Source: Pseudophaeobacter leonis (GTDB lineage Bacteria > Pseudomonadota > Alphaproteobacteria > Rhodobacterales > Rhodobacteraceae). Taken from it: DNA of 64,000 bases. Position numbers and translations under genes: made by a program. Below are positions 32,321 through 56,199 of this stretch, piece after piece. The stretch covers positions 1 to 64,000 of the forward strand of contig NZ_MWVJ01000105.1 in the NCBI RefSeq assembly GCF_002087335.1. The letters are read 5' to 3'. The notes beneath the pieces were generated by a model. It saw nothing but the letters and a program-made list of their open reading frames with translations, was not told the DNA's origin and ran no database searches. The stretch's first letter is position 1, and every line of letters starts with the position of its first letter.

Positions 32321-32343
32321 TTGCATGTCTCCTTTTGGCAGAA

Positions 32344-33123
32344 TTACTCGTTCACCCACTTGGGCGCACGAGTCTCGACGAAAGCATTGACGCCTTCTTT
32401 TAAATCTTCGGTTTTGGCCAGATCGGCGATGACCTCGCGGGAATAGGCGATGCTGCCGGCCATGCCGTCCCGCAGGGCCATGTCGTTCAGCACCCGTTTG
32501 GTGGCTTTGACCGCCGAGGGGGACACCGTGCAAAGCTGCTCGGCCTTTTCCATCGCTTTTTCCATCAGCTGAGCATGCGGATGTATTTCGTTGATACAGC
32601 CCAAAGCCAGCGCCTCAGTGGCAGTGATGGTGCGACCGGTGAACATCACTGCCTGCGCCGCCAGCCGGCCAATGTAGCGCGACAGGCGCTGAACGCCCGA
32701 TGCGGCGGCAAAGAAGCCGACCTTGACCTCGGGCAGGGCAAATTTGGCGTTTTCCGAGGCCAGGATAATGTCACAGGACAGCGCCGTTTCAAATCCGCCG
32801 CCCATCGCAAACCCATTGACGGCAGCGATAATGGGCTTTTCCAGATCAAAGCGGGACGACAGCCCGGCAAAACCGGTTTCGGTCATTTTGGCCTTGCTGC
32901 CACCTGTTGCCGTGGCCTTTAGATCGTTGCCTGCCGTGAAGGCCTTGTCTCCGGCGCCCGTCAGCACAGCAACCCAAAGGTCTGGATCGGCGGCAAATTT
33001 ATCCCAGCAGTCAGCCATTTCGTTGTGCATATCGACATGCACGGCATTGTAGACTTCGGGTCGGTTCATGGTGACCACAAGGATATGCCCCTTGGTTTCG
33101 GTTTTGATGAAATCATAGCTCAT
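32344..33123 (-). CDS. Enoyl-CoA hydratase/isomerase
   Basis: 259-residue crotonase-fold protein. The CoA-binding and oxyanion-hole segments are AGNDLKAT and AAVNGFAMGGGFE near residues 65 and 100. The position of the first catalytic Glu (often E-x-A in this family) is less clear, and LPEVKVGFFAAASG supplies the second. It hydrates an enoyl-CoA to the (S)-3-hydroxyacyl-CoA. The start overlaps the stop of the upstream 3-hydroxyacyl-CoA dehydrogenase by four bases, so the two steps are made from one message. Intact. Confidence 0.9.
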   Translation of the reverse strand: MSYDFIKTETKGHILVVTMNRPEVYNAVHVDMHNEMADCWDKFAADPDLWVAVLTGAGDKAFTAGNDLKATATGGSKAKMTETGFAGLSSRFDLEKPIIAAVNGFAMGGGFETALSCDIILASENAKFALPEVKVGFFAAASGVQRLSRYIGRLAAQAVMFTGRTITATEALALGCINEIHPHAQLMEKAMEKAEQLCTVSPSAVKATKRVLNDMALRDGMAGSIAYSREVIADLAKTEDLKEGVNAFVETRAPKWVNE

Positions 33124-34413
33124 ACGATCAAACCTCCGGTGTCGATCTGGGTGAAGGCGCCACCCTCAGCCGCCAGTTTGCGCAGTGTCTGCGCAGGCGC
33201 AAAGGCGTCATCCTCGGTGCCAAGCTTTTCCATCCGGGCCAGAACCGCTTTGGCTCCAACCATGTCGCCGTAAAACATCGGTCCCCCCTTGTCGGCCGGC
33301 CAGCCATAGCCGTTTAGCCACACCACATCGATATCAGAGGGGCGCTGCGCCTTGTTCTCCTCCATGATTTTCACGGCTTCGTTGATCATGGGGTAAATGC
33401 AGGTTTCAACGATCTCGTCGGGGCCCATCGTTGCGGGCTTTGCACCGGTGATGTCGCGGATGATCCCGGCGGTGATCTCCGAGGGTACTGGGCGGCGTGC
33501 CTCGTCATAGTCGTAAAACCCTGCCTTGGTCTTTTGGCCGCGCCGGTCCAGCTCACACAATGCATCGCGGATTGGGTTGTCGGTTTTGGCGCCCTTTGAC
33601 CAGCCGATATCCAGCCCCGCAAGATCGCTCATCTGGAACGGGCCCATCTTAAAGCCAAACGCGTTCAGTGCGGCATCAACATCCCAGGGCATCACCCCCT
33701 GATAGACCAGTTTGTTGGCTTGAATTTGACGCGCAAACAGGATGCGGTTGCCGACAAAACCTGGGCACACACCAACAAGCGTTGCGATTTTGTTGATATC
33801 TTTCGCCAGCGCCATGCAGGTCGCAACCACATCATCCGCTGTATGTTTGGCGCGCACGATTTCCAGCAGTTTCATCACGTTCGCAGGCGAGAAGAAATGC
33901 AGCCCGATCACGTCTTGGGGCCGCTGCGTCATCGAGGCAATTTCGTTGATATCCAGTGCCGAGGTGTTCGTGGCCAGAATGGCTCCCGGTTTCATAACGC
34001 GATCCAGTTCGGTGAAGATCTGGCGCTTTAGGTCCATGTTTTCGAACACAGCCTCAATCACAAGGTCACACTCCGCAAGATCAGCAAGCGCGAGGCGGCC
34101 ATCAAACCGTGCCATGCGGGCCTCGACTTCGTCCTGTGGGAAACGACCCTTGTCTGACGAGCGCTGGTAGTTGCCACGCACAACGTTCAGGCCGCGATCC
34201 AGCGCCTCTTGTGTGGTCTCGACAATGCGCACCGAAATGCCTGCGGTGGCAAAATTCATCGCAATGCCACCGCCCATGGTGCCGGCACCAATGATGCCAA
34301 CGGTCTTGATCGGGCGTTTTTGGAGTGGTCTCGTCCAATCCGGGCACTTGCCAGGCAGCGGTGCCAGCCTCGGCGATATAGCTGCCGATTTCTGTTTCGG
34401 TTGGGGTATTCAT
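33120..34413 (-). pseudogene. 3-Hydroxyacyl-CoA dehydrogenase, frameshift near N-terminus
   Basis: NAD-dependent (S)-3-hydroxyacyl-CoA dehydrogenase of about 431 residues. The start [12 protein letters not shown] is at 34413. Near 34318, in GTTTTTGG, the frame shifts; the corrected reading is [20 protein letters not shown], the Rossmann motif. Further motifs are ATNTSALDINEIA, IGLHFFSPANVMKLLEIV with the catalytic His and Glu pair, and VGVCPGFVGNRI. A second C-terminal dimerisation domain with WLNGYGWPADKGGPM is present, like the dehydrogenase half of FadJ/PaaH-type proteins. It is two bases downstream of the ligase stop. Confidence 0.9.
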
Positions 34414-34415
34414 TT

Positions 34416-36116
34416 TTAGGCCTCTTTATTGTTCAGACAGGCTGTACGGATCGCACGGCGGTCTATTTTGTCGGTTGCACCGCGCAGCAATATGTCGTGC
34501 TGGGTCCACAGGTGGGTGGGCATTTTGTATGTCGCGAGATGCCCATCAAGAAAGGCGACCATGTCTTCCAGGCTAAGCTGGGCCCCGGCTTTGAGCTGCA
34601 CAGCCGCGCCCACCGCTTCTCCCAGCCGCTCGTCAGGCACAGAAAATGCCGCTGCTTCCAGAACGTCGGGATGGTGGTGTAGGGCGCCTTCAACATCCAG
34701 GCAGGCGATGTTTTCGCCGCCACGGATAATGATGTTCTTCTTACGGTCCAGGATGGTCACAAAGCCATCCGCGTCGAGCACACCCAGATCGCCAGTGCGC
34801 AGCCAGCCATCTTGCAGAACCTCATCCGTTGCCTCTGGTTTATTCAGATAACACCGCATGTTTGCGGCACTTTTGACAGTGATCTCGCCCAATGCGCCCA
34901 GGGGGACGTCATTGCCTGCGTCATCCAGCATGCGGAGCTCTTGCAGGGGGGGATGCAGTTTGCCGGCACTATCGGGGCGGGCCTTGTAGTCGTCGCCGAT
35001 CATGCCAATGCCCAGGGCGTTGGTTTCCGTCATGCCCCAGCCCGTTGCGACCCCGGCATTGGGAAAGGCTTCGGCCAGTTTTGCGACCTGTGCGCCGGGC
35101 CGTTTGGCGCCGCCGGCCCCAAGATAATCTATCGACGGAAGCGTCTCGCCCATCTTGAGAGCAGCAGTCATCAGTTCGGCGGATTGCGTCGGAACCCCCA
35201 AAAAACGCGTGATATTATTGTCCCGTATCAGGCGGACTGCCTCTTCCGGATCCCACTTGTACATCAGTGTGATCTTGGCCCCGGCCGGCAGGCTGAGCAA
35301 AAATAGCGGGTGGGTTGCCGTCACATGAAAAAGCGGTGTCACCACAAGCGCTGACGGGCGCAACGGCTCTGGGGCCTCGGGTTCCGGCGGGGTGATCAGC
35401 GGCGCGGTCACCGATTGCATCAACCAGCTGAACACTGCGTTGAGCGCGCCTCGATGGGTTTGCACCACGCCTTTTGGCTGGCCCGTCGTCCCCGACGAAT
35501 ACATGATGGCAAAATCATCATCGGTGTCGATATCAACCACCGGGGCGGTCTCGGCACGCGCATTGCGTTTGAGAGCGCTGAGGTCATGTGCGGTTTGCCC
35601 CTCTGCGTCGCGCACACCAATCAGGGTCAGATCCCGTGTGTCGCAAAGTGGCAGCAACCGTTCCATGCGCAGCCCGTCTGCAAAAATCACATGGGCTTCG
35701 CTGTCTTGTAAAGCATAGTCCAGCTCTTCGCTTGTCCACCACGCGTTTACAAAAACCACGACCCCTCCGATCGAGGAAATCGCCAGAACGAGCATCAAGA
35801 GTTCGGGATAATTCCGCATGGCAATGGCGACCCGGTCACCTTGACCCAACCCCAGCTCATCCCGCATTGCATGCGCCAACTGGTTCACCGATTTGGTGAA
35901 TTCGGCGTAGGTATAGCTTTCGCTCTCATAGGCCAGATACTCAAGCGCGCCATCGCCGTGCTGTGCCCAACCGGCCGCCAGTAGCCCGGGAACCGAGCCA
36001 GGGATGGCCTTGAATGCCTTTACGGTCACACCACGCACATCGACGTCATGCACTGCAAACGTTGGGATGGTGGTCATCACATGCTGTACGGCTTCTTCAG
36101 GTGTCATCGCTGTCAT
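34416..36116 (-). CDS. Acyl-CoA ligase (AMP-forming)
   Basis: ANL-superfamily ligase that would activate a carboxylic acid to its CoA thioester. ATP motif [13 protein letters not shown] is near residue 215, [11 protein letters not shown] near 370, WLRTGDLG near 445 and [13 protein letters not shown] near 465; the C-terminal lysine lies in TDKIDRRAI. The start is uncertain. ATG 36116 is the first in frame, but the strong GGGAGGGG at 36141-36149 is placed for an ATG at 36139 that is in another frame, so a base may be missing in the first 20 bp. Leads a leftward operon for beta-oxidation. Substrate unknown; a short or cyclic carboxylate is as likely as a fatty acid. Confidence 0.88.
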
Positions 36117-36231
36117 TGCAGCTCTGGAAATAGATACATGTTCCCCTCCCAAGGAAAATGCCGACTGCGCCTTCTCAGAGTGTAGCCGACGTTCTCGTTG
36201 CCAGACTAGGGAGTCGATTGCTATCTTCCAA

Positions 36232-36525: not shown

Positions 36526-36891
36526 TCATGTCGCGACAGATGGGTAGTCCTTGCCAACCCAGTGCTGCAATTTGGCTGCAAACTCCTTTTGGAACGCCAG
36601 GGGGCCGCTTTTCTCCATGTAAGGCTCATCATAGATGCCGATGAAAAGTGTCAGGTTCAGGAAGAAATGCGCGCCCATCTCAAAAAGCGCGACGTAGTCG
36701 TGATTGATCAGCGCGTTGCGCTCTTGTGGAGTGAAGCCGTTTACGGTCGACATTTCTGCATCGCTCAGGCGTGGCCCGATGGATTGTTCCCATATGGCGA
36801 CGAAAGTGTGCGGATCTTCAGTGTAGCGCTTGAGGTATTCGGGGTCGCGATCCACTGTGAACAGGAATTTATTGACGTAATACTTGCTCAT
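36526..36891 (-). CDS. ligA: LigA-type small subunit of extradiol dioxygenase
   Basis: 121 residues, all helical by appearance, resembling the alpha subunit of protocatechuate 4,5-dioxygenase and the C-terminal domain of gallate dioxygenase. The conserved stretch ERNALINHDYVALFEMGAHF lies near residues 57-76; this subunit forms the lid of the active site. Its start overlaps the ligB stop by four bases, the usual partner arrangement. It differs enough from classical LigA that the ring substrate could be something other than protocatechuate. Last gene of a leftward operon with IclR regulator and amidohydrolase. Confidence 0.8.
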   Translation of the reverse strand: MSKYYVNKFLFTVDRDPEYLKRYTEDPHTFVAIWEQSIGPRLSDAEMSTVNGFTPQERNALINHDYVALFEMGAHFFLNLTLFIGIYDEPYMEKSGPLAFQKEFAAKLQHWVGKDYPSVAT

Positions 36892-37748
36892 GCTGCGGTC
36901 TCCTTTGGATACCAGGTAAAGTAGGCTTCCATGGTGTGAAACAAATCAAGGTTGTCTACGTAATCCGCGCCTTCGGGGCCGGCCACACCCAACATCAGGA
37001 TGAAGTTGAGGAAGCCGTGGGTGGCGTTGCCGCTTTTGGCCATGCTTTCATGATCGACATTGGCAAGGATCGCATCGATATCACCGTTGCGCAGCCACTC
37101 GATCGCCTGACGGTCAAACTCAGGGTCCGGCCCGGTTTCCATGAATTGACGCGGCCCGCCCAATTCTAACGACAGGTGGCCTGTGCCGATGGCTGCAACA
37201 CGCTTGTCCGACGGGTAGGCGTCAATCGCTTTGCGGATTGCGCGGCCCAGATTGTAGAACCGCTTTGGCGAGGGCAGGGGCGGCGCAAATATGTTTGTAT
37301 AGATTGGCACGACGGGCAAATCATTGTCCGGGCGCACGGTGATGATGGGGCAGATGATCGAATGGTCGATCTTCAACTCGTTGGAAAAGGCAAAATCAAA
37401 GTCCTGGTCCATCAGGTTCTGGTGCATAAAGCCAGACATGTCTTCGTCGCCTTCCAGCACGTATTTCGGAATGCCGAATTCTCGTTCTTCATTGTAGAAT
37501 GTCGCGTCATAGCGCGGCGCCTTGCCGATCAGGAACTGGGGGCAGTTGTCCAAAAATATCTGGTGAAAGTGATCGGAGCCGATCATCACCAGAATATCCG
37601 GTTTGGTGCGCGCCAGTGTTTCACGATAGGCTTCAATCTTGCGTTTCCACTCTGCCGCCTGCGGCATTTGCTGTTCCGGCGGCATCGTCGTCGCTTTGAG
37701 GTAAAACGGGTGGTGGGTCGAGGCCAAGGTAGCAACTAGCTGAGCCAA
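36888..37748 (-). CDS. ligB: LigB-type catalytic subunit of class III extradiol dioxygenase
   Basis: 286 residues. Class III ring-cleavage dioxygenases use Fe(II) held by two His and one Glu. His12/His13 in ASTHHPFY and His60/His62 in GSDHFHQ are the two His ligand regions, and the catalytic His is in AIGTGHLSLELGG near residue 200. The late motif reads SGNATHGFLNFI, where many relatives have a Glu after the His, so the third ligand is not obvious. In LigAB the enzyme opens protocatechuate between C4 and C5. A QuiC-type dehydratase 22 kb away could supply protocatechuate. It follows a Tat-exported amidohydrolase in the same operon. Confidence 0.82.
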   Translation of the reverse strand: MAQLVATLASTHHPFYLKATTMPPEQQMPQAAEWKRKIEAYRETLARTKPDILVMIGSDHFHQIFLDNCPQFLIGKAPRYDATFYNEEREFGIPKYVLEGDEDMSGFMHQNLMDQDFDFAFSNELKIDHSIICPIITVRPDNDLPVVPIYTNIFAPPLPSPKRFYNLGRAIRKAIDAYPSDKRVAAIGTGHLSLELGGPRQFMETGPDPEFDRQAIEWLRNGDIDAILANVDHESMAKSGNATHGFLNFILMLGVAGPEGADYVDNLDLFHTMEAYFTWYPKETAA

Positions 37749-37834
37749 ATTCTCACTCCTTCATCAATGGGCTGCCCCAGGCGGGGCCTGTTCATAAGGC
37801 GCCCCCGCAGCACGCGGCCGGGGGCAGTTGTGCT

Positions 37835-39346
37835 TCAGGCGAAAAGGTCGCGCTCAACACCCGCGGCTTCAAACAGATAGTCCCGGCTTGTTTCCAGCTC
37901 CCCCCGCAGGCGTTCGATGTCAAAGCCCAGCATCTGGCCTTGCCATTTCTTCACCTGGCCGGCGACCATGACTGTATCGACATTGCTGCGCTCCATCAGG
38001 GTCACAACGGCACCGGGGACATTGTTCAGCGGCGCCACGTTGAGGGCTTCGGCGTCCAGCAGAAGGATGTCCGCCTCTTTGCCCGGCGTCAGAGACCCGA
38101 TCTTGTGATCCAGTTTCAGACCTTCAGCACCGCCCATCGTGGCGTGGCGGATGGCCTGCATGCAGTGCATGAGGTCGGGATAGTCCTGACCCGACAGCGC
38201 CTTTTCGTTGGCGAACATGCGTTGCAGCGTGATCAAACTGCGCATCTGGGTGAAGAAATCCGCCGTCATGGTGCATTCGACGTCTGTCGACAAAGAGGTA
38301 GACAGACCCATGTCGATGGCTTTTTGGATGGGGGGCGTGCCGTGACGCATGTGCATCTCGATGGGGACCGAAAGCGAGATATGCGCCCCGGCGTCCTGGG
38401 CGTATTTCCAGCCATCCTCAGACATGCCTGTCATGTGGATGAAAATATTGTCGTCGCCGAACATGCCTGCAGCGCCCAGTTCGTCAAAGGTTGGCTGCAT
38501 ACCAAAGGTGCCAACCACGTGCAGCGCAATTGGCAAGTCCAGTTCGCGACCGACCTTCCATGCGGCTTCATAGCCGGGCAGATAAATTTCGCCGCCCATG
38601 ACCATGGTGGTCAGCTGGTCATCAGACGAGAAATACTGCTGTTTGATGCGCGCGGCATCTGCCGGGTATTTAGCGCGCTCGCCCCAGCCTTCGAAGTAGC
38701 CAAATACGCCACGACGGCCCGCATCACGAAGACCTTCAATGGCGGCGTCTGAATGTTTCGGGGAGTGGTGGATCTGGCTGACGTCCATTACAGTTGTCAC
38801 ACCGGCATCCAGCTGGGCGATACCGCCGAACAGCTCGTTAATATAGACGTCCTCGGGGCGGTAGTGCATCGAGAAGCCCTGCAAGATGGTCTCATAGTAG
38901 TTGGAGGCAGTTGCCGGGCGGCCATCATTCACCAGAATGCCGTTGGACAGTTGGCTGCGCAGGGCGGTTTCAAACTGGTGGTGATGTGTGTCGACAAATC
39001 CGGGCATGACGATCTTGCCTTTGGCATCAATCACCGCCGCGTCGGGCGCGTCAATGTTGGCGCCGACGGCGACGATGGTCTTGCCATCAATCAGCACGTC
39101 GCCAGTGGCAAAGTTGCCGACCGCATCGTCCATCGACATAACTGAGCCGCCTTTGATCAGCACGCGCCGACCGGGTGCGCCGACACCGTCAGGCAGTGTG
39201 GCGGCGGCCGCTTGTTGCGCCTGCGCTGTGCCTGCAATTGAAATGCCGGCTGTGCCAGCAACACCGGCCGCAGCACTTGCCTTAAGAAAGTCGCGCCGCG
39301 TGGGGCAGGGCAACTGGGGTTTGTTCGGATCGCACAGTCTACACAT
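37835..39346 (-). CDS. Tat-exported amidohydrolase (TrzA/AtzA-like)
   Basis: 503 residues from ATG 39346, preceded by GAGGGGAAACC. A Tat signal with TRRDFLKASAAAG is placed unusually after a short Cys-containing leader (MCRLCDP), and the cleavage region is GTAQAQQ. The amidohydrolase metal ligands are visible as the H-x-H in VDTHHHQF, His in ALHVVG, His in IFIHMTG and Asp in STDVEC. Family members hydrolyse or deaminate ring or amide substrates. Located between its IclR regulator and the ligBA genes, it may release the acid that is then taken in and ring-cleaved. Export means it acts in the periplasm, before the TRAP importer encoded divergently. Intact. Confidence 0.85.
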   Translation of the reverse strand: MCRLCDPNKPQLPCPTRRDFLKASAAAGVAGTAGISIAGTAQAQQAAAATLPDGVGAPGRRVLIKGGSVMSMDDAVGNFATGDVLIDGKTIVAVGANIDAPDAAVIDAKGKIVMPGFVDTHHHQFETALRSQLSNGILVNDGRPATASNYYETILQGFSMHYRPEDVYINELFGGIAQLDAGVTTVMDVSQIHHSPKHSDAAIEGLRDAGRRGVFGYFEGWGERAKYPADAARIKQQYFSSDDQLTTMVMGGEIYLPGYEAAWKVGRELDLPIALHVVGTFGMQPTFDELGAAGMFGDDNIFIHMTGMSEDGWKYAQDAGAHISLSVPIEMHMRHGTPPIQKAIDMGLSTSLSTDVECTMTADFFTQMRSLITLQRMFANEKALSGQDYPDLMHCMQAIRHATMGGAEGLKLDHKIGSLTPGKEADILLLDAEALNVAPLNNVPGAVVTLMERSNVDTVMVAGQVKKWQGQMLGFDIERLRGELETSRDYLFEAAGVERDLFA

Positions 39347-39374
39347 CTTGGTTTCCCCTCCTGAAGTACCTTTT

Positions 39375-40247
39375 CTATTGCCCGATAACTGACGCCAGCG
39401 CGGGATAGCGCGTGAGGGTCTGAGCAATGCTGGATGCAACGGTTCGCAGTTGCGAAAGCCGTTCGTTGATCAAATAGTCGGCATCAATCATGCCGCTGTA
39501 GCCTGATGTATTCAGGGCTGCGATTGTCCGGCCATCCACAGCGCGGATTGGGACAGCCAGGGCGGTGATGCCATAATCAAGCTGATCTACGGTTGTTGAA
39601 TAATGCGCTGCGCGGACCGCCTCTATTTCTGCACGCAATGCCACGGGATCGGTGATTGTCTTTGAAGTGAGCGGCTCAATCACGAGATCGTCAAAATAGG
39701 CGTCAAGTTCGGCGGCTGGAAGACCGGCAAGCAAGACGCGGGCAAGCGAGGTAGCATAGGCCGGATAGCGGGCCCCAACAACCGCAGCTGCACGGCGCGC
39801 ACGTTGCACAGAGCTATGGGCAATGTAGATCACATCCTTGCCATCAAGGGTGCCAACAGATGAGGCGTCACCAAATTTTGCCACCAAATCGCGCAGGAAC
39901 GGCTGCAGCACCTCATCGATTCGGGCCGAGTAGTAGAACGCAGACCCCAGGGTCATGATTTTGGGGCGCAGGTGAAAGCTTTTGTTGTTCTGCCCGACAT
40001 AGCCCAGTGTCTTGAGCGTTATCAGGCTGCGTCGGGCCGCCGCCGGGCTGAGCCCAACCTTGCGCGCGACTTCGCTCAGGGTCATTTCGGGACTGGAGAC
40101 ATCAAAACTTTCGATAATTGCGAGACCTTTGGCCAGCGCCTCGACAAATTCGGCTGGTTTTTCAAGCGCGCTTTTGCTGTTCTTTACCGTCGCTTTAGAC
40201 GCTGCTTCGCCGTGATCTTTGCAGCGTTCTTTTTCGGGCTCATGCAT
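39375..40247 (-). CDS. IclR-family regulator (PcaR/PobR-like)
   Basis: 290 residues, with a basic, low-complexity N-terminus of about 30 residues. The winged helix-turn-helix is MTLSEVARKVGLSPAAARRSL, and the effector domain includes YPAYATSLARVLLAGLP and LDYGITALAVPIR. The branch resembles PcaU/PcaR/PobR, which respond to protocatechuate pathway compounds. First gene of the leftward operon with amidohydrolase and ligBA, and divergent from the CoA-transferase/TRAP operon, so it is well placed to control both. The 160-bp gap contains TTCGC (40350-40354) and GCGAA (40392-40396), possible half-sites. Confidence 0.9.
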   Translation of the reverse strand: MHEPEKERCKDHGEAASKATVKNSKSALEKPAEFVEALAKGLAIIESFDVSSPEMTLSEVARKVGLSPAAARRSLITLKTLGYVGQNNKSFHLRPKIMTLGSAFYYSARIDEVLQPFLRDLVAKFGDASSVGTLDGKDVIYIAHSSVQRARRAAAVVGARYPAYATSLARVLLAGLPAAELDAYFDDLVIEPLTSKTITDPVALRAEIEAVRAAHYSTTVDQLDYGITALAVPIRAVDGRTIAALNTSGYSGMIDADYLINERLSQLRTVASSIAQTLTRYPALASVIGQ

Positions 40248-40410
40248 GCTGCACCCTGTTCAAATTCCGTGTCATCTGCGGCTCCCTTTTCCATCTCCAC
40301 TGATCTGCCGTGACAATGGCAAAAAACACCGAGCTTGACGAAACCATAATTCGCTGCAATTCTTTCGGCAAGAGAAATTATTTTCGGTATGCGAAAAAAG
40401 AGGAAGCGAA

Positions 40411-41220
40411 ATGCGAATAGGCAAGCAAAATCAGGCTTTAACGGCAATCGCGACATCGGACGCCGACACGATCACGGTGCGGGGCTATGACCTGTGCAGT
40501 GATTTGATTGGTCAGATTGATTTCAGTGACTACTTCTGGCTGCTGGTGATTGGTCAGAAACCAACACCTGCCCAACGCAAGATGCTTGATGCGTGTCTTG
40601 TCGCAATTGCGGAACACGGGTTGGTGCCCAGCGTTCAGGCCGCGCGCATGACATTGGCGGCAGGCCCCGAGGCATGGCAGGGCGCGATGGCCGCAGGTCT
40701 GCTGGGCATGGGCTCTGTTGTGGCGGGCAGCACCGAGGTGTCCGGGCAATATCTTGCGCAGGGGATGGCAAAGGCAAAGAGCGAAGGTTGCGACCTTGAG
40801 ACCGCAGTCATTGCAAGCCTGAACGAGCTGAAGGCGGCGCGCAAGAAAATCCCGGGTCTGGGCCATCCACAACACAGCGAGGGTGACCCGCGGGCAATCA
40901 AATTGCTGGATCTTGCAGACGAGCAGGGGGTGTCGGGGCGCTATGTGGAAACACTCCGCATGCTGGCCAAACACGCGCCGGGGATTATCAACAGACCGCT
41001 GCCAATCAACGTGTCCGGTGCAATACCGGCAGTGATCCTTGATGCAGGCTGGCCGTTGGAGGCCCTGAAGGCCGTCCCGCTTCTGGCGCGCACAGCCGGT
41101 CTTGCGGCGCATCTGTACGAAGAATCACTGCGCTCCATCGGGTTCATCATGTCGCATCAGGCCGATGTGGCGATTTCATACGATGGCGCGGCATCGAAAC
41201 CCTCCAGTTCAAACTCCTGA
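40411..41220 (+). CDS. Citryl-CoA lyase-like (citrate synthase family)
   Basis: 269 residues, the length of the short citrate-synthase-fold proteins called citryl-CoA lyase. The motif LGHPQHSEGDPRAIKLLDLA holds the His equivalent to citrate synthase His320, and ARTAGLAAHLYEE is the C-terminal segment shared by the subgroup. A residue matching citrate synthase His274 is not evident. Such proteins can split a citryl-CoA-like 3-hydroxy-3-carboxyacyl-CoA to acetyl-CoA and a 2-oxo acid. It is first in a rightward operon and is followed after 10 bp by a family III CoA transferase, which could make its thioester substrate. Good ribosome site AGAGGAAG before the ATG. Confidence 0.82.
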   Translation: MRIGKQNQALTAIATSDADTITVRGYDLCSDLIGQIDFSDYFWLLVIGQKPTPAQRKMLDACLVAIAEHGLVPSVQAARMTLAAGPEAWQGAMAAGLLGMGSVVAGSTEVSGQYLAQGMAKAKSEGCDLETAVIASLNELKAARKKIPGLGHPQHSEGDPRAIKLLDLADEQGVSGRYVETLRMLAKHAPGIINRPLPINVSGAIPAVILDAGWPLEALKAVPLLARTAGLAAHLYEESLRSIGFIMSHQADVAISYDGAASKPSSSNS

Positions 41221-41230
41221 GGCGGGCATT

Positions 41231-42379
41231 ATGGTCAAAATTCTGAACAATATCCGTGTGATCGAGATGGGGACATACATCACCGGCCCAGCTGCTTCGA
41301 TGCATTTGGCCGACCTTGGTGCGGATGTCATCAAGGTTGAACGCCCCGGTCAGGGGGATCCGTTCCGTGCCTTCAAGGGCGGGCTCTATTCGCCGCACTA
41401 TCAGACATACAACCGCAACAAGCGGTCAATTGCGCTGGATACAAAGCAGTCCGGTGATGGCGCGACGTTTCGCGACCTGATCGCCTCGGCGGATGTGTTT
41501 ATCCAGAACTTCCGCCCCGGTGTTGCAGAAAAACTGGGGGCTGGCGATGAGGAGCTGCGCAAGATCAATCCCTCTTTGATCTATTGCGCGATTTCCGGCT
41601 TTGGCAAATCCGGTCCCTATCGCGACCGCCCTGCCTATGACACGGTTGCACAGGCCGCGAGCGGATATCTGCGACTGCTGACGCCGCCAACCAATCCGCG
41701 GGTTATCGGCCCTGCGATTGCGGATTCCGTGACCGGCCAATACGCCGCGATGGGGATCATGGCGGCCTTGATTGAGCGCGGCAGTTCCGGCAAAGGGCGC
41801 AGGCTGGATATCTCGATGCTGGAAGCGATGACGCATTTCAATCTCGATAGCTTTTCGCACCATTATTCCGCAGGCGAGGTGATGGGCCCGCTGTCGCGTC
41901 CGGTTGTCTCGCAAAGTTACACATTCGAGTGCAGCGATGGGAAATGGATTGCGATCCATTTGTCGTCGCCAGCCAAATTCTGGGAAGGCTTCCTTTCTGC
42001 CACAGGGCAGCAGGCGCTGAAGGATGATCCGCGATTTTCGGAGCGTTTGGAGCGGATCAAGCACCAGGACGAGATAATCGAGATCATGACGCCAGTCTTA
42101 AAGTCTGCAACGCGCGACATCTGGTGCGCGCGTCTGGAGGCGGCAGAGGTTCCGCATTCGCCGGCCTATGATGCGGATGAGGCGCTGGAAGATCCCCAGG
42201 CAAAGCATCTGCGGATTGCGGTCACGTCAGAGCATCCCGAGATGGGCCGCTTTACCACAGTGCGCCCGCCCTACAGCTTTGATGACATGCCCGAATATGA
42301 GGTTCTGCCGCCCCCGACGCTTGATGAGCATGGCGATGAAATCCGGGCTGAACTGCAGCGTGAGAACAAAGCCAGCTGA
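41231..42379 (+). CDS. Family III CoA transferase (CaiB/BaiF)
   Basis: 382 residues. ATG 41231 begins MVKILNNIRVIEMGTYITGPAA, the usual start of this family. VIKVERPGQGDPFR follows near residue 38. The catalytic Asp is in DRPAYDTVAQAASGYL near residue 140. These enzymes pass CoA between carboxylates through a mixed anhydride and are used to activate organic acids without ATP. Placed between the citryl-CoA-lyase-like gene and a YciI-like gene, it probably activates the product of ring opening, or the substrate of the lyase. Intact. Confidence 0.92.
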   Translation: MVKILNNIRVIEMGTYITGPAASMHLADLGADVIKVERPGQGDPFRAFKGGLYSPHYQTYNRNKRSIALDTKQSGDGATFRDLIASADVFIQNFRPGVAEKLGAGDEELRKINPSLIYCAISGFGKSGPYRDRPAYDTVAQAASGYLRLLTPPTNPRVIGPAIADSVTGQYAAMGIMAALIERGSSGKGRRLDISMLEAMTHFNLDSFSHHYSAGEVMGPLSRPVVSQSYTFECSDGKWIAIHLSSPAKFWEGFLSATGQQALKDDPRFSERLERIKHQDEIIEIMTPVLKSATRDIWCARLEAAEVPHSPAYDADEALEDPQAKHLRIAVTSEHPEMGRFTTVRPPYSFDDMPEYEVLPPPTLDEHGDEIRAELQRENKAS

Positions 42380-42410
42380 ACACAAATCGCGACAAGGGAG
42401 GAGCGACAAA

Positions 42411-42815
42411 ATGAGAGAGGTGGATAACCCCAAATCGGTGCCTGCTGCGGATGTGCGCGAAGCCAGCAGTGGGATGCTGCAACAGCAGCTCTACGCGGTC
42501 TTTACCACGCCGACTGATGGGCTGGGTGCGGTCTTTGCCAATCTTGTGGCGCACCTGGAATTTCAGGTCGGGCTTGAAAAAGAAGGCATCTTGTTCGCGG
42601 CCGGGCCTTTGTGGACCGACGACGAAGACCATTGGGAGGGCGAAGGCATGGTTGTCATCCGGGCCAGTTCACGCGCCGAGGCCATTGCCATCGCAGAACG
42701 CGACCCAATGCACCAAAGCGGCGCCCGTAGTTTCACGGTGCGACCGTGGATGATCAACGAAGGCTCAGTGAGCGTGCGTCTGAACTACTCAACGCAAACT
42801 TTTGAAATCAACTGA
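42411..42815 (+). CDS. YciI-like protein
   Basis: 134 residues starting at 42411 after GGGAGGAG. The C-terminal 95 residues have the ferredoxin-like YciI/muconolactone-isomerase fold pattern: a His in LVAHLEFQVGLEKEGILFAAGP and an Asp in AERDPMHQSGARSFTV. Some family members are lactonases, isomerases or dehalogenases for ring-fission products; others have no known activity. In a ring-cleavage cluster it is a candidate for isomerising or hydrolysing a lactone or pyrone intermediate. It lies between the CoA transferase and the TRAP binding protein. Confidence 0.75.
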   Translation: MREVDNPKSVPAADVREASSGMLQQQLYAVFTTPTDGLGAVFANLVAHLEFQVGLEKEGILFAAGPLWTDDEDHWEGEGMVVIRASSRAEAIAIAERDPMHQSGARSFTVRPWMINEGSVSVRLNYSTQTFEIN

Positions 42816-42834
42816 ACATCGAGGGAGGAATACG

Positions 42835-43905
42835 ATGAGAACTTTTCTGGGAACAATGACGGCGGCGATAGCCTTTCCTGCGGCGTTGCTGGCGCAGGAG
42901 ACAATTAATCTGACGGTGGCCTCGAGCCACCCGACCGTTGTGCCATGGGTCGGCATGATCCAGACGCATTTCATGGCGCGTACGGATGAAATTCTTGCCG
43001 AAAGCGGCGACTACGAAATCGCATGGAACGAAGCCTTTGGTGGCACGCTCTACAAAGCGAATGCAACGCTGAGCTCGGTCGAAGAGGGCATCACCGATAT
43101 CGGTTGGGTTTTCTCATTTCTGGAAGCCGCGCAGCTGCCGCTGAGCCAGGTCTCGACGAATACACCCTTTGCCACGGCGAATCCCCCGGTTTTGCTGGAC
43201 GTCATGGAAAAGCTGTTGGAAACAAACGACGGCTTTCGCTCCGAATGGGAAGATCATAACCTTAAGGTCCTTGGGCTGACGGCGACAGATCTGTACGACA
43301 TCTACACCAAGGAGCCGCTGACAGGCATTGCGGACATCAACGGGATGAAGCTTTCAGCTCCCGGTGTTTTGGGCAGCTGGCTGCGCGGCACAGGGGCCAA
43401 TGCTGTTGATGGGGCTTTGACCACATTCTACACAGATGTTCAGACGGGTGTATCTGACGGCGCTTTGACGCTGGCGCTAGGTGCCATGCCGATCAAGCTG
43501 TACGAGGTGGCCCCCTACATCAACCGTTTTGATGCCGGTGCGGCGTTTTCGGGGGCTGTGGCAATCAACCGCGACACATGGGACAGCCTGCCTGAGCCCG
43601 TGCAGAACGCCATGATTGAGGCCGGTGCCTATTACCCCGAAAGCCTCGGTCAGGATATGGTCGACCGCCACGAGCTGATGATGAACATCATGGTGTCGAA
43701 AGGCGCGGAGCAGTCGCCTCCCGTGACGATCGTCTCAATGCCTGCTGGCGAACGTCAGGCCTGGGTCGACATGCTGCCTGATCTGGCTGGCGAGTGGGCG
43801 GCGGCTGTGGATAAGCAGGGCGCTGCGGGAACAGAGTTCCTGGCGGAATACATGAACGGGTTGCGTGCTGCGGGTGAAACCCCTGCGCGTGACTGGGACA
43901 AGTAA
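42835..43905 (+). CDS. dctP: TRAP transporter substrate-binding protein (DctP family)
   Basis: 356 residues from ATG 42835, preceded by GGGAGGAA. The first 20 residues are a Sec signal ending in ALLAQE. DctP-type sequence includes WNEAFGGTLYKANATLSSVEEG and the region GMKLSAPGVLGSWLRGTGAN near residue 175; the usual conserved arginine that salt-bridges the substrate carboxylate is likely the one in WLRG. The periplasmic receptor delivers an organic acid to the DctQM membrane unit encoded next. The context points to an aromatic or ring-derived acid. Confidence 0.9.
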   Translation: MRTFLGTMTAAIAFPAALLAQETINLTVASSHPTVVPWVGMIQTHFMARTDEILAESGDYEIAWNEAFGGTLYKANATLSSVEEGITDIGWVFSFLEAAQLPLSQVSTNTPFATANPPVLLDVMEKLLETNDGFRSEWEDHNLKVLGLTATDLYDIYTKEPLTGIADINGMKLSAPGVLGSWLRGTGANAVDGALTTFYTDVQTGVSDGALTLALGAMPIKLYEVAPYINRFDAGAAFSGAVAINRDTWDSLPEPVQNAMIEAGAYYPESLGQDMVDRHELMMNIMVSKGAEQSPPVTIVSMPAGERQAWVDMLPDLAGEWAAAVDKQGAAGTEFLAEYMNGLRAAGETPARDWDK

Positions 43906-43917
43906 CGGTCCGGACCT

Positions 43918-44487
43918 GTGAAAACTGAAAACAACCTGAACAGTGCCCGCGGATCGCGCGGGCACGGCAGCCACGGTATTATGCGCATCTGGTCACGTGT
44001 CGTGGAGGGGCTTGCAGTTATCGGAACACTGATGATTGGCGTTCTGATGATCATCATTTGCGCAGATATCGTGTTCCGGAACCTGCTTGGCGCCTCTTTG
44101 CCCCTGGTGTCTGAGCTTGGGGCATTGGTGCTGGTCATGATCGTCTATCTGCAACTTGCAACGACAGTGCGGGCCGACCGGCTGGCGCGGACCGAAATTT
44201 TCTTACCGGCTTTCAGACGGCGCTTTCCGAAACTGGGAGGTCTGCTGGCAGCCCTGTTTGATCTGGTCGGAGCTTTCATGCTGGGCCTAATCGCGTGGTC
44301 AACGCTGCGGATTTTTGAAAAAGACTTCAGCTCTGGCGAATTTATCGGTGTCACCGGTATCGCGACACTGCCGACATGGCCCTTTCGCGCAATGATCCTG
44401 CTGGGTGTGACTGTTGCTGCGGTTGAATTCATCATGCGTGCCGCAAGCAATCTGCGGACGCGTGATACAGGAGAGGCGCCCAAATGA
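43918..44487 (+). CDS. dctQ: TRAP transporter small permease (DctQ)
   Basis: 189 residues with four predicted membrane helices. The frame begins with GTG at 43918; an ATG at 43981 (MRIWSRVVEG) would give a protein of 168 residues beginning just before the first helix and is a reasonable alternative. DctQ helps position the large permease and is needed for transport, but carries little sequence signature: ADIVFRNLLGASLPLVSELG is typical. Stop and dctM start overlap by four bases. Confidence 0.88.
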   Translation: MKTENNLNSARGSRGHGSHGIMRIWSRVVEGLAVIGTLMIGVLMIIICADIVFRNLLGASLPLVSELGALVLVMIVYLQLATTVRADRLARTEIFLPAFRRRFPKLGGLLAALFDLVGAFMLGLIAWSTLRIFEKDFSSGEFIGVTGIATLPTWPFRAMILLGVTVAAVEFIMRAASNLRTRDTGEAPK

Positions 44488-45797
44488 CCCCTATTGAAAT
44501 TGGCACGTATGCCATCGGCGCATTGGTCCTGTTGATCTATATCGGACTACCCATCGGCATCGGGATGCTACTGGTGTCTTTTGCAGGCGTGGCCTTGATC
44601 CGCAATGAGGCCGTTGCGACCCGCATGATCGGTGCTGTGGCCAACGATGCGCTGCAGGAATACCTCTTTGCGGTGGTGCCTCTCTTTGTCCTCATGGGGC
44701 TGCTGGTGACAGTGTCAGGCGTGGGCAAGGATACCTTTGATGTCTTTGAGCGATTGCTGAAACGCGTCACTGCCGGGCTTGGTATTGCCACCGTTTTTGC
44801 CAATGCTGTGTTTGCCTCGATCACGGGAATTTCCATCGCATCCGCGACCGTTTTCAGCCGTGTGGCCGTGCCTGAAATGACACGACATGGCTACACAAAG
44901 AAGTTTGCGACAGGTGTGGTGGCCGGCTCGTCCGTGCTGGGTATGATGATCCCGCCATCGTTGTTGATGATTGTGTATGCCGTATTGGCCGAAGAATCCG
45001 TCGGGCGCATGTTCTTGGCGGGCATTGGGCCCGGGCTTTTGCTGGCAGTTTTGTTTTCAGCGACGATACTTTTGCTGGCAAAGACGCAAAAGGATTTTGT
45101 CTTTGCCGATACCAATGACAGCAGCGAATTTCACGACATTACCGCAGGCGAGATCGTCCGAAAGTCCGTCCCAATCGTCAGCTTGATGCTGTTGGTATTG
45201 GGCGGGCTGTATGGCGGGTTCCTCAACCCAACGGAGGCCGGAGCTGCCGGCGCGTTTGGCGCACTTGTCATTGCGGTGTTGCGCAGGTCTCTGGGGGGTG
45301 GAACGTTTTGGAAACTGTTGGTCGAGACGGGGCAAATCACTGTGTCTGTGCTGCTATTGATCATGGCTGCCACGTTCTTTAGCCGCATGCTGGCCTTGTC
45401 TGGGGTGCCACGTGAGCTGGCAGAGTTCTTTCTGTCTGGTCCTGTCGGCCCCTTTGGCTTTTTGCTTTTGTATCTGCTGATCATCATCGCGCTGGGGTGC
45501 CTGATCGATTCTATTTCGATCATGCTGATCATGCTGCCGATTGCTTTGCCGGTGGCCAATGCGGCTGGGTTTGATCTGATCTGGTTTGGTGTTCTGACCG
45601 TTGTGGCCGTTGAAATCGGACTGCTGACACCGCCTTTCGGACTGTCGGTTTATACGATCAAATCCGCTATGGATGACCCTGACCTTAAAGTAGGCGAAAT
45701 CTTTCGCGGCGCTTTTCCGTTCATTCTTGCAATGCTCGTCTCGCTGGCGCTGATCATCGCCTTCCCTTCAATCGCGACCTGGCTCGCACGTCTGTAA
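44484..45797 (+). CDS. dctM: TRAP transporter large permease (DctM)
   Basis: 437 residues with about twelve membrane helices; the ion-coupled channel of the TRAP system. Typical segments are FANAVFASITGISIASATVFS, GYTKKFATGVVAGSSVLGMMIPPS and GGLYGGFLNPTEAGAAGAFGA. Transport uses the sodium gradient in characterised members, suitable for a marine bacterium. The operon order P-Q-M is standard. Intact. Confidence 0.93.
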   Translation: MTPIEIGTYAIGALVLLIYIGLPIGIGMLLVSFAGVALIRNEAVATRMIGAVANDALQEYLFAVVPLFVLMGLLVTVSGVGKDTFDVFERLLKRVTAGLGIATVFANAVFASITGISIASATVFSRVAVPEMTRHGYTKKFATGVVAGSSVLGMMIPPSLLMIVYAVLAEESVGRMFLAGIGPGLLLAVLFSATILLLAKTQKDFVFADTNDSSEFHDITAGEIVRKSVPIVSLMLLVLGGLYGGFLNPTEAGAAGAFGALVIAVLRRSLGGGTFWKLLVETGQITVSVLLLIMAATFFSRMLALSGVPRELAEFFLSGPVGPFGFLLLYLLIIIALGCLIDSISIMLIMLPIALPVANAAGFDLIWFGVLTVVAVEIGLLTPPFGLSVYTIKSAMDDPDLKVGEIFRGAFPFILAMLVSLALIIAFPSIATWLARL

Positions 45798-45817
45798 CAA
45801 AATAGAGAACAAATCGA

Positions 45818-46342
45818 ATGACCAATCTCCTTTTCGTAATCGGAAGCCTGCGCGCGGCCTCTGCCTCTATGGCGACGGCGCGCGCGATTGTTGACCAGCT
45901 TGGGGCTGAGGTGTCGTGCAGCTTTGCCGACATTGGCGGCTTGCCGCACTATAATGCCGATCTGGGCGAGGTGCCCGAGGTGACACATCTGATCAAGCAA
46001 CTGCACGAGGCCGATGGTCTGGTGTTTGTGACGCCTGAATACAATTACAGCATTCCCGGGGTTCTGAAGAACGCGATCGACTGGGCGTCGCGGCCTGCGT
46101 TTGACTCTGTCTTCAAGGACAAGAAATGCATTGTCATCTCTGTGTCTGGTGGATCCCTCGGGGGCGTGCGTGCGCAATCGCATCTGAAATACATTCTCAA
46201 TGGCATGCTTGCGCAAACCTATACCTGCAAAGAAATCGTGATCCCGATGGCCAGTGCCAAGATCGAAGAGGGCAAACTGAACAACACTGCTGCGGTTGAT
46301 TTTATCACAGAGAATATGCGCGGCTTTATTGCCAGTTTCTGA
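45818..46342 (+). CDS. NADPH-dependent FMN reductase
   Basis: 174 residues of the flavodoxin-like NAD(P)H:FMN reductase family (ChrR/SsuE-like). The FMN phosphate loop is GSLRAASASMATARA near residue 8, and PEYNYSIPGVLKNAIDW near 70 is the family hallmark, followed by VSGGSLGG. It supplies reduced flavin to a monooxygenase or reduces quinones. No flavin-dependent monooxygenase is seen in the operon, so a partner elsewhere, or a quinone-reducing role for catechol-derived quinones, is likely. Last gene of the rightward operon. A 9-bp bulged stem (46343-46366) follows without a T-tract. Confidence 0.9.
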   Translation: MTNLLFVIGSLRAASASMATARAIVDQLGAEVSCSFADIGGLPHYNADLGEVPEVTHLIKQLHEADGLVFVTPEYNYSIPGVLKNAIDWASRPAFDSVFKDKKCIVISVSGGSLGGVRAQSHLKYILNGMLAQTYTCKEIVIPMASAKIEEGKLNNTAAVDFITENMRGFIASF

Positions 46343-47418
46343 CCCATGCGGGTCACGCCCGCTGGGTATAGACGTGGAAAACTGACACAAGCAGCTCGCG
46401 TAACTTTATAAAAAACCGCGTGCTGTCGTGAGGCTCTGACAGATGCAGGACTCGTCTCTGTTGCACATGTTGCGGGACTGAAAGCTATCGCCGAGTTGCG
46501 GTTTATCTGCACCGGCGATGGTGAGGCAAAGCTGTGTTTGGGTCTGCTTTGTTGTCTTAACGCTCATCCCTCGGGCCCGCTCTTTTGAGAATGGCATATA
46601 GCACTTCAGGTTGGGGAAATCGCTTCACGAGATGTCTGTCTTCCGGCCTCAGGAAATCCCCAAGAACCATCGTCCCGGCGGCATAGCCCGAGATGAAGAT
46701 AAAAGAGGTTCTTGCCTCTCAGGTTTCCATTGACCTTCGAGTCTGCCAGTGACTTTAGGGCGATGCGGCGTCCGGTGCGCGCTTTGTGTGCAAGGTCCAT
46801 GTTTTAATTCCTCAGTTTTGATTCCTGTTTTAAACATGGAGGCTTTCGCGGTTTGGCGTCAGGCTGACATCGGGATAGGTTGGCCCGAAATGGTGCAGGC
46901 ACATATCCAAAAGGGTAGGCTTGCGGCGAGCAAGTGGCCTCAGGCTTACGAGCTCGTCCTTTGCGCCACACTGCCCGCAGCGCAGCCTTCGGGCCTGGCT
47001 GCTGCGGCACTTGGGTGCCGAGGCTGCGGCGAGGTTCACGCTCAACTGGTCTGTTGCGTATTTCAAAAAATCATCGATGGCAGCGTGATCACCGGGGCAG
47101 ATGTGAGCCACGCGGTGTGGAGTGTTTGCGCGCAGGGTTCCTGCGCGGTTCTGCGCGAGGGCAGCGGGCAGCTGTGAGGGCGGCCAGATGCCTGATTGGG
47201 ATGCGAAACGCTCATAATATTCCATTTGTGCATCATTTCATCGTCAAATCTTTCTGTTTAAATTCATAATTTTACGTGTATCACTCACATATATCTCTAA
47301 ATTTTCTAGACATATGTACTAAAAAATTGCTACGTACCAAGGCCTGACCACCAGGATACAATTGCCGGTCAGGCCTGCCGCCGAATGGGAGGGCGTGCCA
47401 CATATGGGAGGAAAGAAT
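46343..47418. other. Long region without a supported gene, before livK copy 2
   Basis: About 1.07 kb. A minus-strand frame at 46830-47225 (131 codons) contains a RCGQCG pair of cysteines but resembles no family I can name, and a second minus frame lies at 46606-46800; both may be worn remnants of lost genes. The last 180 bp are very AT-rich, including a possible promoter for livK and two GTAC half-sites like those before the other genes of this block. Confidence 0.4.
47315..47337. promoter_or_regulatory. GTAC half-sites upstream of livK copy 2
   Basis: TGTACT (47315-47320) and GTAC (47334-47337) in an AT-rich leader about 85 bp before the gene. They resemble halves of the TGTAC-N4-GTACT palindrome seen at 54876 and 58102 but at a wider spacing, so this is a weak member of the set. 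Confidence 0.3.
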
Positions 47419-48668
47419 ATGAAACGTTTTACAACCGCAATTTTAGCCGCAACCATCGCGGCGGCCGCACTGCCGGCGTTTGCGAGTGATAACCTGCGGA
47501 TCGCCTACATCGACCCACTTTCGGGCACCTTTGGGGCCACCGGGAATCATGGTCTGAAGCAGGTGTTGTTCGCAGCGGATGAGATCAACAAGGCCGGTGG
47601 TATCAACGGAGAAACGGTCGAAATCGTTTCATTCGACAACAAGATCAACCCCAAGGAGTCGCTGGTTCAGCTGCAAAAAGCTATTGATCGCGGCATTCGC
47701 TATGTCATGCAGGGGAACGGCTCCTCTGTTGCCTCCGCGCTGATTGATGCGGTGGACAAGCACAACGAACGCAACCCCGGCGATGAAGTCCTGTTCATCA
47801 ACTATTCGGCCGTTGATCCTGCGCTGACCAATGAAGCCTGCTCGTTCTGGCATTTCCGCTTTGACTCTCACGCGGGGATGAAATGGAAGCGGTCACGGAC
47901 TGGATTGTCGCCAAGGGTGACATCAATAGCGTCTATGTTCTCGGCCAGGACTATTCCCACGGTCAGGCGGTTGCAGCCGCAGCGGTTAGCCAGCTTGCCG
48001 TAAAGGCGCCCGCGATTGCGATCGCCGGCAATGAGCTGCACCCGCTGGGCAAAGTGAAAGACTTCACGCCCTATGTGCAAAAGATCATCAGCTCTGGCGC
48101 CGATGCCATCATTACCGGCAACTGGGGGTCCGACCTTGTGCTGCTGGTAAAGGCTGCGACAGATTCCGGCTGGGATAAGCCCATTCTTACCTATTATGGC
48201 TCTTCGCTTGGCTCGGCGACCGCCATGGGCGAAAATGCTGTCGGAAAAGTCCGTCAGGTCTCTGAAATTGACGTCAACTTTGCGTCTGGTGATGCCGCAC
48301 AAGAAGCCCGTATCGACGCGTTTGACGCGCAGTATGGTCCCGATGAGTTCTATGCCTACCACCGGATTTTCAACGCTTTGACATTCCTGGATCTGGCCGC
48401 TGAAAAAGCAGACTCGCTTGATCCAAAGGACGTTGCATTTGCGCTGGAAGGCCTCGTGTATGAGGGCCCTTACGGTCCTGTTACGATGCGGGCCGAGGAT
48501 CACCAGGTCCTGCAGGATTTGTTCATCACAACCTTCGCAAAAGATCCCGCGCGTGGCGTTGAAGGGCTTCCTTTGGGCTGGGCGATGGAAGACGAAAAAG
48601 TCGATCGCGTTGCCGCAAGCAACACTGCAAGCGCGACAACCTGTGAGATGACGCGCCCTGCCAACTAA
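47419..48668 (+). pseudogene. livK: ABC substrate-binding protein (livK copy 2), frameshifted
   Basis: Second Liv-type binding protein of about 416 residues. The start at 47419 follows GGGAGGAAAG. Signal peptide to about residue 22 (ALPAFAS), then LRIAYIDPLSGTFGATGNHG. The frame breaks at about 47885 (GGGGATGAAATGGAAG) with FDSHAGMK on one side and MEAVTDWIVAKGD on the other; one lost base explains it. The C-terminal Cys-containing tail SATTCEMTRP matches copy 1. Its pattern of conserved residues is close to copy 1, so the ligands are probably related. Confidence 0.9.
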
Positions 48669-53705: not shown

Positions 53706-53706
53706 T

Positions 53707-54630: not shown

Positions 54631-54875
54631 GCTTTTTCCTTTGAAACTAGATCACAGCTCTTCGAAATCTGCCTGTCCGAACGCGGAGTGCAGATGGAAG
54701 GCATTCATATTTTGGTGCTTTGTACTATTTTATCCGCAGATGATCGGCGTGCTCTGAGGGTGCGTCTGTCTGGAATTTGAGTGCCGAATGTCCCAGATTA
54801 GCCTCCAAGTGCAAAGTGTGCGTTCGGAAACGCTGCTTGGACCCTAAAACCCAGGCTTTTGATAGTCAACTTTTT

Positions 54876-54889
54876 TGTACAAAAGTACT
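54876..54889. promoter_or_regulatory. TetR-type operator candidate TGTAC-AAAA-GTACT
   Basis: A GTAC-N4-GTAC site in the leader of the SDR-thiolase unit, just downstream of the tandem TetR gene. The reverse complement of a site at 58102-58115 fits the same pattern, TGTAC-N4-GTACT. A half-site TGTACT also occurs at 54721-54726, closer to the SDR start. Confidence 0.5.
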
Positions 54890-54892
54890 AAT

Positions 54893-56179: not shown

Positions 56180-56199
56180 CACATCTTGGGTTGTTTCCT

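Follow-up and report, generated by a model that had tools for sequence, protein, structure and literature searches.

What does a bacterium do with an island that sets a LigAB-type ring-cleavage dioxygenase beside coenzyme A (CoA)-dependent enzymes? The question arises from a stretch of 64,000 nucleotides of Pseudophaeobacter leonis (contig NZ_MWVJ01000105.1, positions 1 to 64,000; hereafter the window), in which two facing operons occupy 36526-46342. The minus-strand operon encodes an IclR-type regulator, an amidohydrolase, LigB and LigA, and the plus-strand operon a citrate-synthase-fold protein resembling citryl-CoA lyase (CCL), a CoA transferase, a YciI-like protein, a tripartite ATP-independent periplasmic (TRAP) transporter and a flavin mononucleotide (FMN) reductase (Table 1). 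An earlier note on this DNA had named these genes, and all of them are where and in the orientation it placed them, judged by the list of open reading frames (ORFs), Pfam and NCBIfam models and homology, with the LigA assignment the weaker one. From sequence comparison we tentatively read the island, with a probability of about 0.45, as a CoA-dependent pathway that has spread horizontally and is probably under IclR control. Its substrate would be an aromatic with several hydroxyls, seemingly of a plant type and akin to hydroxyquinol (benzenetriol) or to pyrogallol.

In islands that otherwise match, LigAB is replaced by an intradiol enzyme resembling hydroxyquinol 1,2-dioxygenase. A search of 196 genomes of the order with the window CCL found, besides the genome of origin, seven genomes with a CCL at 72-78% identity (sister islands L150-L156). 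IclR, CCL and CoA transferase are present in all seven, a DctM-type TRAP permease in six, amidohydrolase and FMN reductase in five each, and YciI in three; these proteins are ~50-81% identical to those of the window. Between IclR and CCL every sister island has a protein of 285-287 residues in place of LigAB. The two of these that were tested with Pfam are intradiol dioxygenases (PF00775 plus PF04444), tblastn puts the other five at 74-90% identity or similarity to the tested ones, and pattern matching finds in all seven the Tyr/Tyr/His/His motifs, which we take to be the intradiol iron ligands. Searched against the PDB, the L150 protein has as its top five matches (E from 4.5e-64 to 2.6e-55) three enzymes named hydroxyquinol or chlorohydroxyquinol 1,2-dioxygenase, one PnpC and one unnamed intradiol enzyme. 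LigB of the window clade is found in none of the seven sister-island genomes; six have no LigB match at all at E 1e-5, and G418 has three at 32-33% identity. Nor is there an intradiol dioxygenase gene in any of 90 surveyed loci of the LigB clade (the window locus, nine plasmid loci and 80 genome loci). Two non-homologous ring openers exchanged inside one conserved context suggest one shared type of substrate and product.

The exchange appears to extend beyond the sister islands. On plasmids of Burkholderia glumae, Cupriavidus necator and Rhodococcus rhodochrous, CCL-like genes adjoin intradiol dioxygenases, together with a CoA transferase or a CoA ligase. A careful CCL tree, built on a subset of rows, places the LigAB-linked CCLs in three supported clades, A (99/92), B (96/90) and C (100/99), which a quick earlier tree also gives, and each contains intradiol-linked members: seven in A, that of B. 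glumae (L163) in B and that of R. rhodochrous (L166) in C.

The window LigB has the class III extradiol fold, and its closest solved relative is gallate dioxygenase (DesB), at ~25% identity. We compared 50 rows of its clade with 28 comparison rows. The pair of iron-ligand histidines (LigB His12 and His61; window H12 and H60) is kept in every row of both sets. The third ligand, Glu242 in LigB, is Glu in 28/28 comparison rows but Gly (window Gly245) in 50/50 clade rows; the second-sphere His195 is His in all comparison rows and Leu (Leu194) in all clade rows, while the equivalent of the other second-sphere residue, His127, is kept throughout the clade as H129. Invariant in all 50 are H12, D59, H60, D128 and H129, and also H271, T272 and E274 of a C-terminal HTxE motif that is a further difference from DesB and LigAB; a new histidine, His191, is restricted to rows in which the Glu is lost. 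Having failed two defining active-site tests, the protein is on these alignments not a canonical extradiol dioxygenase. It may still be a ring-cleaving one. In the predicted structure, strands 3-11, 52-58 and 183-190 finish immediately before H12, H60 and H191, which agrees with our proposal that iron is held by a rearranged three-histidine set made up of these residues. H244 was considered as the replacement ligand and judged less likely than H191, being His in 45/50 rows and Pro in L180 and L181.

The LigA-like partner matches PF07746 below the cut-off (E 0.0067, 17.0 bits against 25.3), as do three clade orthologues and outgroup L181, whereas outgroup L180 scores above it; in 89 of the 90 loci its gene follows that of LigB on one strand, at a distance of no more than 120 bp. 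The conserved partner and the invariant histidines and aspartates argue against a LigB-like protein that has ceased, with its Glu and catalytic His, to be a dioxygenase and become a metal hydrolase or a structural protein. Islands with and without the intradiol enzyme would then degrade different compounds, and we consider this quite improbable, given that the intradiol gene takes the LigAB position in islands that otherwise encode proteins so similar to those of the window. The alpha subunit of 2-aminophenol dioxygenase is an inactive LigB twin, and such a role is not supported here: a search with the window LigB gives one LigB match in its own genome, which is 92% complete.

Three-histidine iron sites do have a precedent in the LigB superfamily, in BvDOD and YgiD, as described in the available part of PMC11926856; the site proposed here is predicted only. 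According to the same part of that paper, BvDOD and YgiD have their third histidine at the LigB Glu242 position, and BvDOD has both second-sphere histidines near the metal. The island protein differs in having Gly, and in no clade row His, at the Glu242 position, and in placing its candidate ligand His191 on the loop that in LigB carries His195.

CCL likewise passes a family model, that of citryl-CoA lyase, and fails the catalytic-residue test. With citryl-CoA lyase 6hxp it has in common the family label, an alignment over most of the chain and the substrate-binding GxGH His (H152); it differs in having Val (V104) for the HGG-motif His and Ser (S202) for the NVD-motif Asp. We take V104, H152 and S202 to stand at the citrate synthase positions His274, His320 and Asp375 and assume the roles to correspond. 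Among 79 CCL rows (35 LigAB-linked and 10 intradiol-linked rows included), 15 keep all three residues, as 6hxp does, and 64 have lost both the His and the Asp, every LigAB-linked and intradiol-linked row being among the latter. Read as family names, the labels LigAB-type dioxygenase and citryl-CoA lyase used in the earlier note stand; as mechanisms they do not, key residues being absent from both. Databases likewise give the names 'extradiol ring-cleavage dioxygenase' and 'citryl-CoA lyase' to proteins from which catalytic residues of the named enzymes are missing. CCL-like proteins with the same losses also occur in loci L157-L161, which gave no LigB or intradiol match with the queries used and share a family of CoA ligases resembling PaaK, judged by one scanned member; from this context the altered lyase family has other uses. 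A literature search gave no publication that stood out as pairing citryl-CoA-lyase-like proteins with ring-cleavage dioxygenases. The portion of PMC2864759 available states that the Cupriavidus metallidurans genome encodes no citryl-CoA lyase of the reductive tricarboxylic acid cycle.

How could both ring openers give one product? Either the ring is a vicinal triol, or a rebuilt LigAB carries out an intradiol-type cleavage of hydroxyquinol; the identity of the replacing enzymes favours hydroxyquinol, and the DesB fold together with a LigM homologue favours gallate-type rings. In the first case (pyrogallol, gallate or tetrahydroxybenzene type) one C-C bond is intradiol to one pair of hydroxyls and extradiol to the next, so an ordinary extradiol LigAB and a catechol-1,2-dioxygenase-type enzyme would both yield an oxalomesaconate- or 2-hydroxymuconate-type acid. 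Hydration, CoA transfer and cleavage would then lead to acetyl-CoA and a 2,4-dioxo acid, to be hydrolysed by the FAH-family protein of some islands. The exchange itself fits, as do gallate dioxygenase as nearest solved LigB relative and the LeuCD-type hydratase of some relatives. A homologue of LigM (vanillate/3-O-methylgallate O-demethylase, E 8.3e-117) adjoins one sister island, LigM-like genes occur at three LigB loci, and the FAH protein of three sister islands has a 2,4-diketo acid hydrolase model as its nearest, with a score under the cut-off. Yet where a top match of the intradiol replacement has a name, it is that of a hydroxyquinol and not of a pyrogallol enzyme, the loss of the LigB Glu and His is left unexplained, the lyase is without the residues for a citryl-type split, and the genome of the window gives no LigM match at E 1e-20. 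On balance we regard this combination of an ordinary LigAB and a vicinal triol as somewhat unlikely.

In the second case the LigAB-fold enzyme would have given up its 2-His-1-Glu site and catalytic His for a three-histidine one, and would cleave a hydroxyquinol-type ring intradiol-wise to a maleylacetate-type product, after which the citrate-synthase-fold protein, without His and Asp, would split the CoA ester (for example, maleylacetyl-CoA and water to maleate and acetyl-CoA). A His-to-Phe change is reported to make an extradiol enzyme partly intradiol. Taken in full, this specific mechanism is doubtful; if true, aromatic breakdown would have a thiolase-free and reductase-free end that is widespread in both Alphaproteobacteria and Actinobacteria. 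It is usual to see extradiol and intradiol enzymes as separate solutions with different products. Here they appear to be exchanged inside one pathway in three lineages, the extradiol-fold partner lacking residues that define extradiol chemistry, and such natural enzyme pairs make the determinants of intradiol versus extradiol cleavage testable.

Horizontal spread is the other part of our reading. Public genomes hold at least 517 stretches encoding relatives of the window LigB; those of at least 65% identity come from Rhodobacterales, Rhizobiales and Actinobacteria, going by the names of plasmid and genome records. Many soil and marine bacteria are among the carriers, the cultured Hoeflea alexandrii DSM 16655 and Pseudooceanicola spongiae HQ09 included. 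Of 295 genomes sampled evenly across the family, two have the LigB clade, the genome of the window being one of them, and other matches are at most 36% identical. For the second of them (G158, LigB 96% identical), DNA similarity spans 36526-45745 in three pieces; three genomes of the same genus have only short scattered DNA matches to it, and in this the block behaves as a unit. The earlier supposition that the two gene sets belong together is borne out in most relatives, since CCL and CoA transferase genes both lie within the LigB locus in 73 of the 90 loci. An IclR-type regulator is found in 72 loci, an amidohydrolase in 59, YciI in 34 and an FMN/quinone reductase of the queried types in 39, with a further such reductase in four Actinobacterial loci. 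The thirteen Actinobacterial loci have the gene order CoA transferase-CCL-LigB-LigA, and their CoA transferase and CCL are ~29-42% identical to those of the window, against 65-78% for LigB. Ring opening beside CoA-dependent enzymes is a recurring theme, also in Actinobacteria and Burkholderiales.

CCL is absent from 16 of the 90 loci, ten of which carry cytochrome P450 genes. Thirteen of the 16 genomes concerned were searched for a CCL; four gave a match, of which that in G435 (50%) alone is of the window type, the other three keeping the canonical residues. LigAB loci without a nearby window-type CCL indicate that LigAB of this clade also serves other downstream routes. A VirA-like sensor occurs at nine LigB loci, often with alpha/beta hydrolase and FAH-family genes. 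Neither CCL nor CoA transferase accompanies LigAB in L031, L037, L053, L072-L074, L083, L084, L096 and L109, and the neighbours in this set vary (P450, glucose-methanol-choline oxidoreductase, alpha/beta hydrolase, FAH-family protein, cytochrome c peroxidase, VirA-like sensor kinase); in these loci the ring enzyme is put to a second use.

The pathway we propose would begin with uptake by the TRAP transporter, or in relatives by a Liv-type ATP-binding cassette (ABC) transporter, and with preparation of the substrate by variable upstream enzymes such as the amidohydrolase, a LigM-type O-demethylase or a flavin adenine dinucleotide (FAD)-dependent hydroxylase. On the model of TftG and its partner reductase in 2,4,5-trichlorophenol breakdown, YciI and the FMN/quinone reductase would strip the ring of a substituent and reduce the resulting quinone. 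LigAB would open the ring with iron on H12, H60 and H191, giving the kind of product that the intradiol enzyme gives, maleylacetate or a similar acid. The CoA transferase would activate this acid, and the citrate-synthase-fold protein would cleave the CoA ester in a non-standard way, releasing acetyl-CoA and a diacid of the C4 or 2-oxo type. A hydrolytic split of maleylacetyl-CoA to acetyl-CoA and maleate is one conjecture for this step. In some relatives a LeuCD-type, maleate-hydratase-like enzyme might then hydrate the C4 acid, by conjecture maleate to malate: the LeuCD family includes maleate hydratases, in four Actinobacterial loci the gene after LigAB is LeuD-like, and LeuCD genes, along with a CoA transferase, join the CCL/intradiol clusters of the B. 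glumae and C. necator plasmids. The genome of the window has a full-length LeuC on contig C63 and a second LeuC-like gene at G000:C109:4341-5716, which carries an in-frame TGA and is made up of two pieces that overlap.

The earlier note had combined these genes in another way: hydrolysis in the periplasm, ring cleavage by LigAB (taken here as protocatechuate-type 4,5-cleavage), processing by YciI, CoA transfer and a split by the lyase (taken here as a classical citryl-CoA lyase). Gene content and neighbourhood agree with this scheme, and its CoA theme is retained. Its chemistry is not supported: LigB is without the iron-ligand Glu and the catalytic His, CCL is without the His274 and Asp375 equivalents, and the sister islands use an intradiol enzyme. 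A first step outside the cytoplasm was rejected as a general rule, a twin-arginine translocation (Tat) segment being clear in only ~17 of 50 close amidohydrolases whose N-termini were read by eye; a strict Tat pattern is found in 22 of the 50, but some of its matches lie inside the mature domain. Of the classical downstream enzymes, LigK was searched for (LigC, LigI and LigJ were outside the search), and its model has one match in the genome of the window, at 73.8 bits against a cut-off of 304.5, with sub-cut-off matches also in 7 of 14 control genomes. We think the scheme as a whole very improbable.

Several points weigh against the pathway proposed here. The standard extradiol product differs from the intradiol product unless the ring is a vicinal triol, and the loop past H191 is modelled poorly (mean pLDDT 51 for residues 191-200). 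LigAB occurs without a window-type lyase in several genomes, so the two are not obligatory partners. The genome of the window has two intradiol-like genes on other contigs (35% and 37% identical to the L150 protein), and LigAB is therefore not its only possible ring opener. The window island has no LeuCD genes, and the genome holds more than one LeuC-like gene. No enzyme of a maleylacetate pathway was identified besides the dioxygenase, although no search was aimed at maleylacetate reductase. Lastly, the intradiol-linked CCLs of L164 and L166 are long-branched, and 18 of 70 inner branches of the tree are open; with the long branches meeting between clade C and the rest, the number of exchanges is approximate.

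Among known systems, the hydroxyquinol pathway with TftG comes near. In 2,4,5-trichlorophenol breakdown the order is TftG, hydroxybenzoquinone reductase and benzenetriol dioxygenase (available part of PMC3975901), and TftG itself, a dehydrochlorinase, belongs to the YciI family and has a His-Asp dyad (available part of PMC7641849). The island has in common with it a YciI-like protein and a quinone/FMN reductase and, in the sister islands, a hydroxyquinol-dioxygenase-like enzyme; it differs in its CoA transferase and citrate-synthase-fold protein and, in the window, in having LigAB for the intradiol enzyme. H50, D73, D100 and H103 of YciI (numbered on the query stretch, not on TftG) are invariant in 37 rows. 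In the naringenin fde pathway of Herbaspirillum the FdeE hydroxylase acts before A-ring fission, according to the available parts of PMC8552027 and PMC11303751, which mention neither a CoA transferase nor a citrate-synthase-fold protein; a hydroxylase ahead of ring cleavage is paralleled in Rhodococcus, where an MhpA-like FAD hydroxylase gene adjoins the island.

Two further neighbours concern relatives of the island. A short protein of the MetE (cobalamin-independent methionine synthase) family is encoded at 8959-9984 of L033, at seven other LigB loci and in four of the seven sister islands, and perhaps uses methyl groups from O-demethylation. A malonate route was considered and rejected: a malonyl-CoA decarboxylase gene adjoins the island in L094, outside the 45 printed neighbour clusters, and was taken as chance.

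Table 1. Genes of the island, with positions in the window and the basis of each assignment
Feature	Position	Strand	Basis and remarks
LigA-like small subunit, 121 aa	36526..36891	-	PF07746 sub-threshold; position behind LigB
LigB-like protein, altered active site	36888..37748	-	PF02900 E 8.9e-30; H12/H60/H129 kept, H191 new, L194/G245 replace His/Glu
TRZ/ATZ-type amidohydrolase with Tat signal	37835..39346	-	PF01979 E 1.7e-26; Pfam TAT_signal 25.7 bits (cut-off 22.7); NCBIfam PRK08204 416.4 bits (cut-off 391); probable Met start 39346 from translation, ORF opens 39439
IclR-family regulator, PcaR/PcaU/PobR-like	39375..40247	-	TIGR02431 241.7 bits, below cut-off 284.75
Citrate-synthase-fold 'citryl-CoA lyase-like' protein (CCL)	40411..41220	+	NCBIfam NF004868 305.2 bits (cut-off 193); V104, H152, S202
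Family III CoA transferase	41231..42379	+	PF02515 E 6e-104, model 1-365 of 366; all NCBIfam CoA-transferase model matches below cut-off; probable Met start 41231, ORF opens 41102
YciI-like protein	42411..42815	+	PF03795 (YCII) E 7.3e-10; probable Met start 42411, ORF opens 42168
TRAP solute-binding protein DctP	42835..43905	+	PF03480; probable Met start 42835, ORF opens 42802
TRAP small permease DctQ	43918..44487	+	61% identity to annotated TRAP small permease of L032
TRAP large permease DctM	44484..45797	+	79% identity to annotated TRAP large permease of L032
NAD(P)H-dependent FMN/quinone reductase	45818..46342	+	PF03358 E 1.6e-33

Genes of the beta-oxidation type flank the island on both sides, at 31235-36152 and 52533-57876 (both minus strand). 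They comprise an acyl-CoA dehydrogenase, an enoyl-CoA hydratase, a 3-hydroxyacyl-CoA dehydrogenase, a thiolase and two acyl-CoA ligases, one of which matches a steroid-24-oyl-CoA synthetase model at a score below the cut-off. At 47362-48668 (plus strand) the gene ahead of those for Liv-type ABC permeases is spread over two reading frames that overlap (47362-48003 and 47883-48668); its translation suggests a frameshift or assembly error in a solute-binding protein, with no family match at E 1e-20. At 58571-60442 (minus strand) a xylose-isomerase-like triosephosphate-isomerase (TIM) barrel is fused to a glyoxalase domain of the 4-hydroxyphenylpyruvate dioxygenase (HPPD) type, presumably the layout of the 3-dehydroshikimate dehydratases that make protocatechuate.

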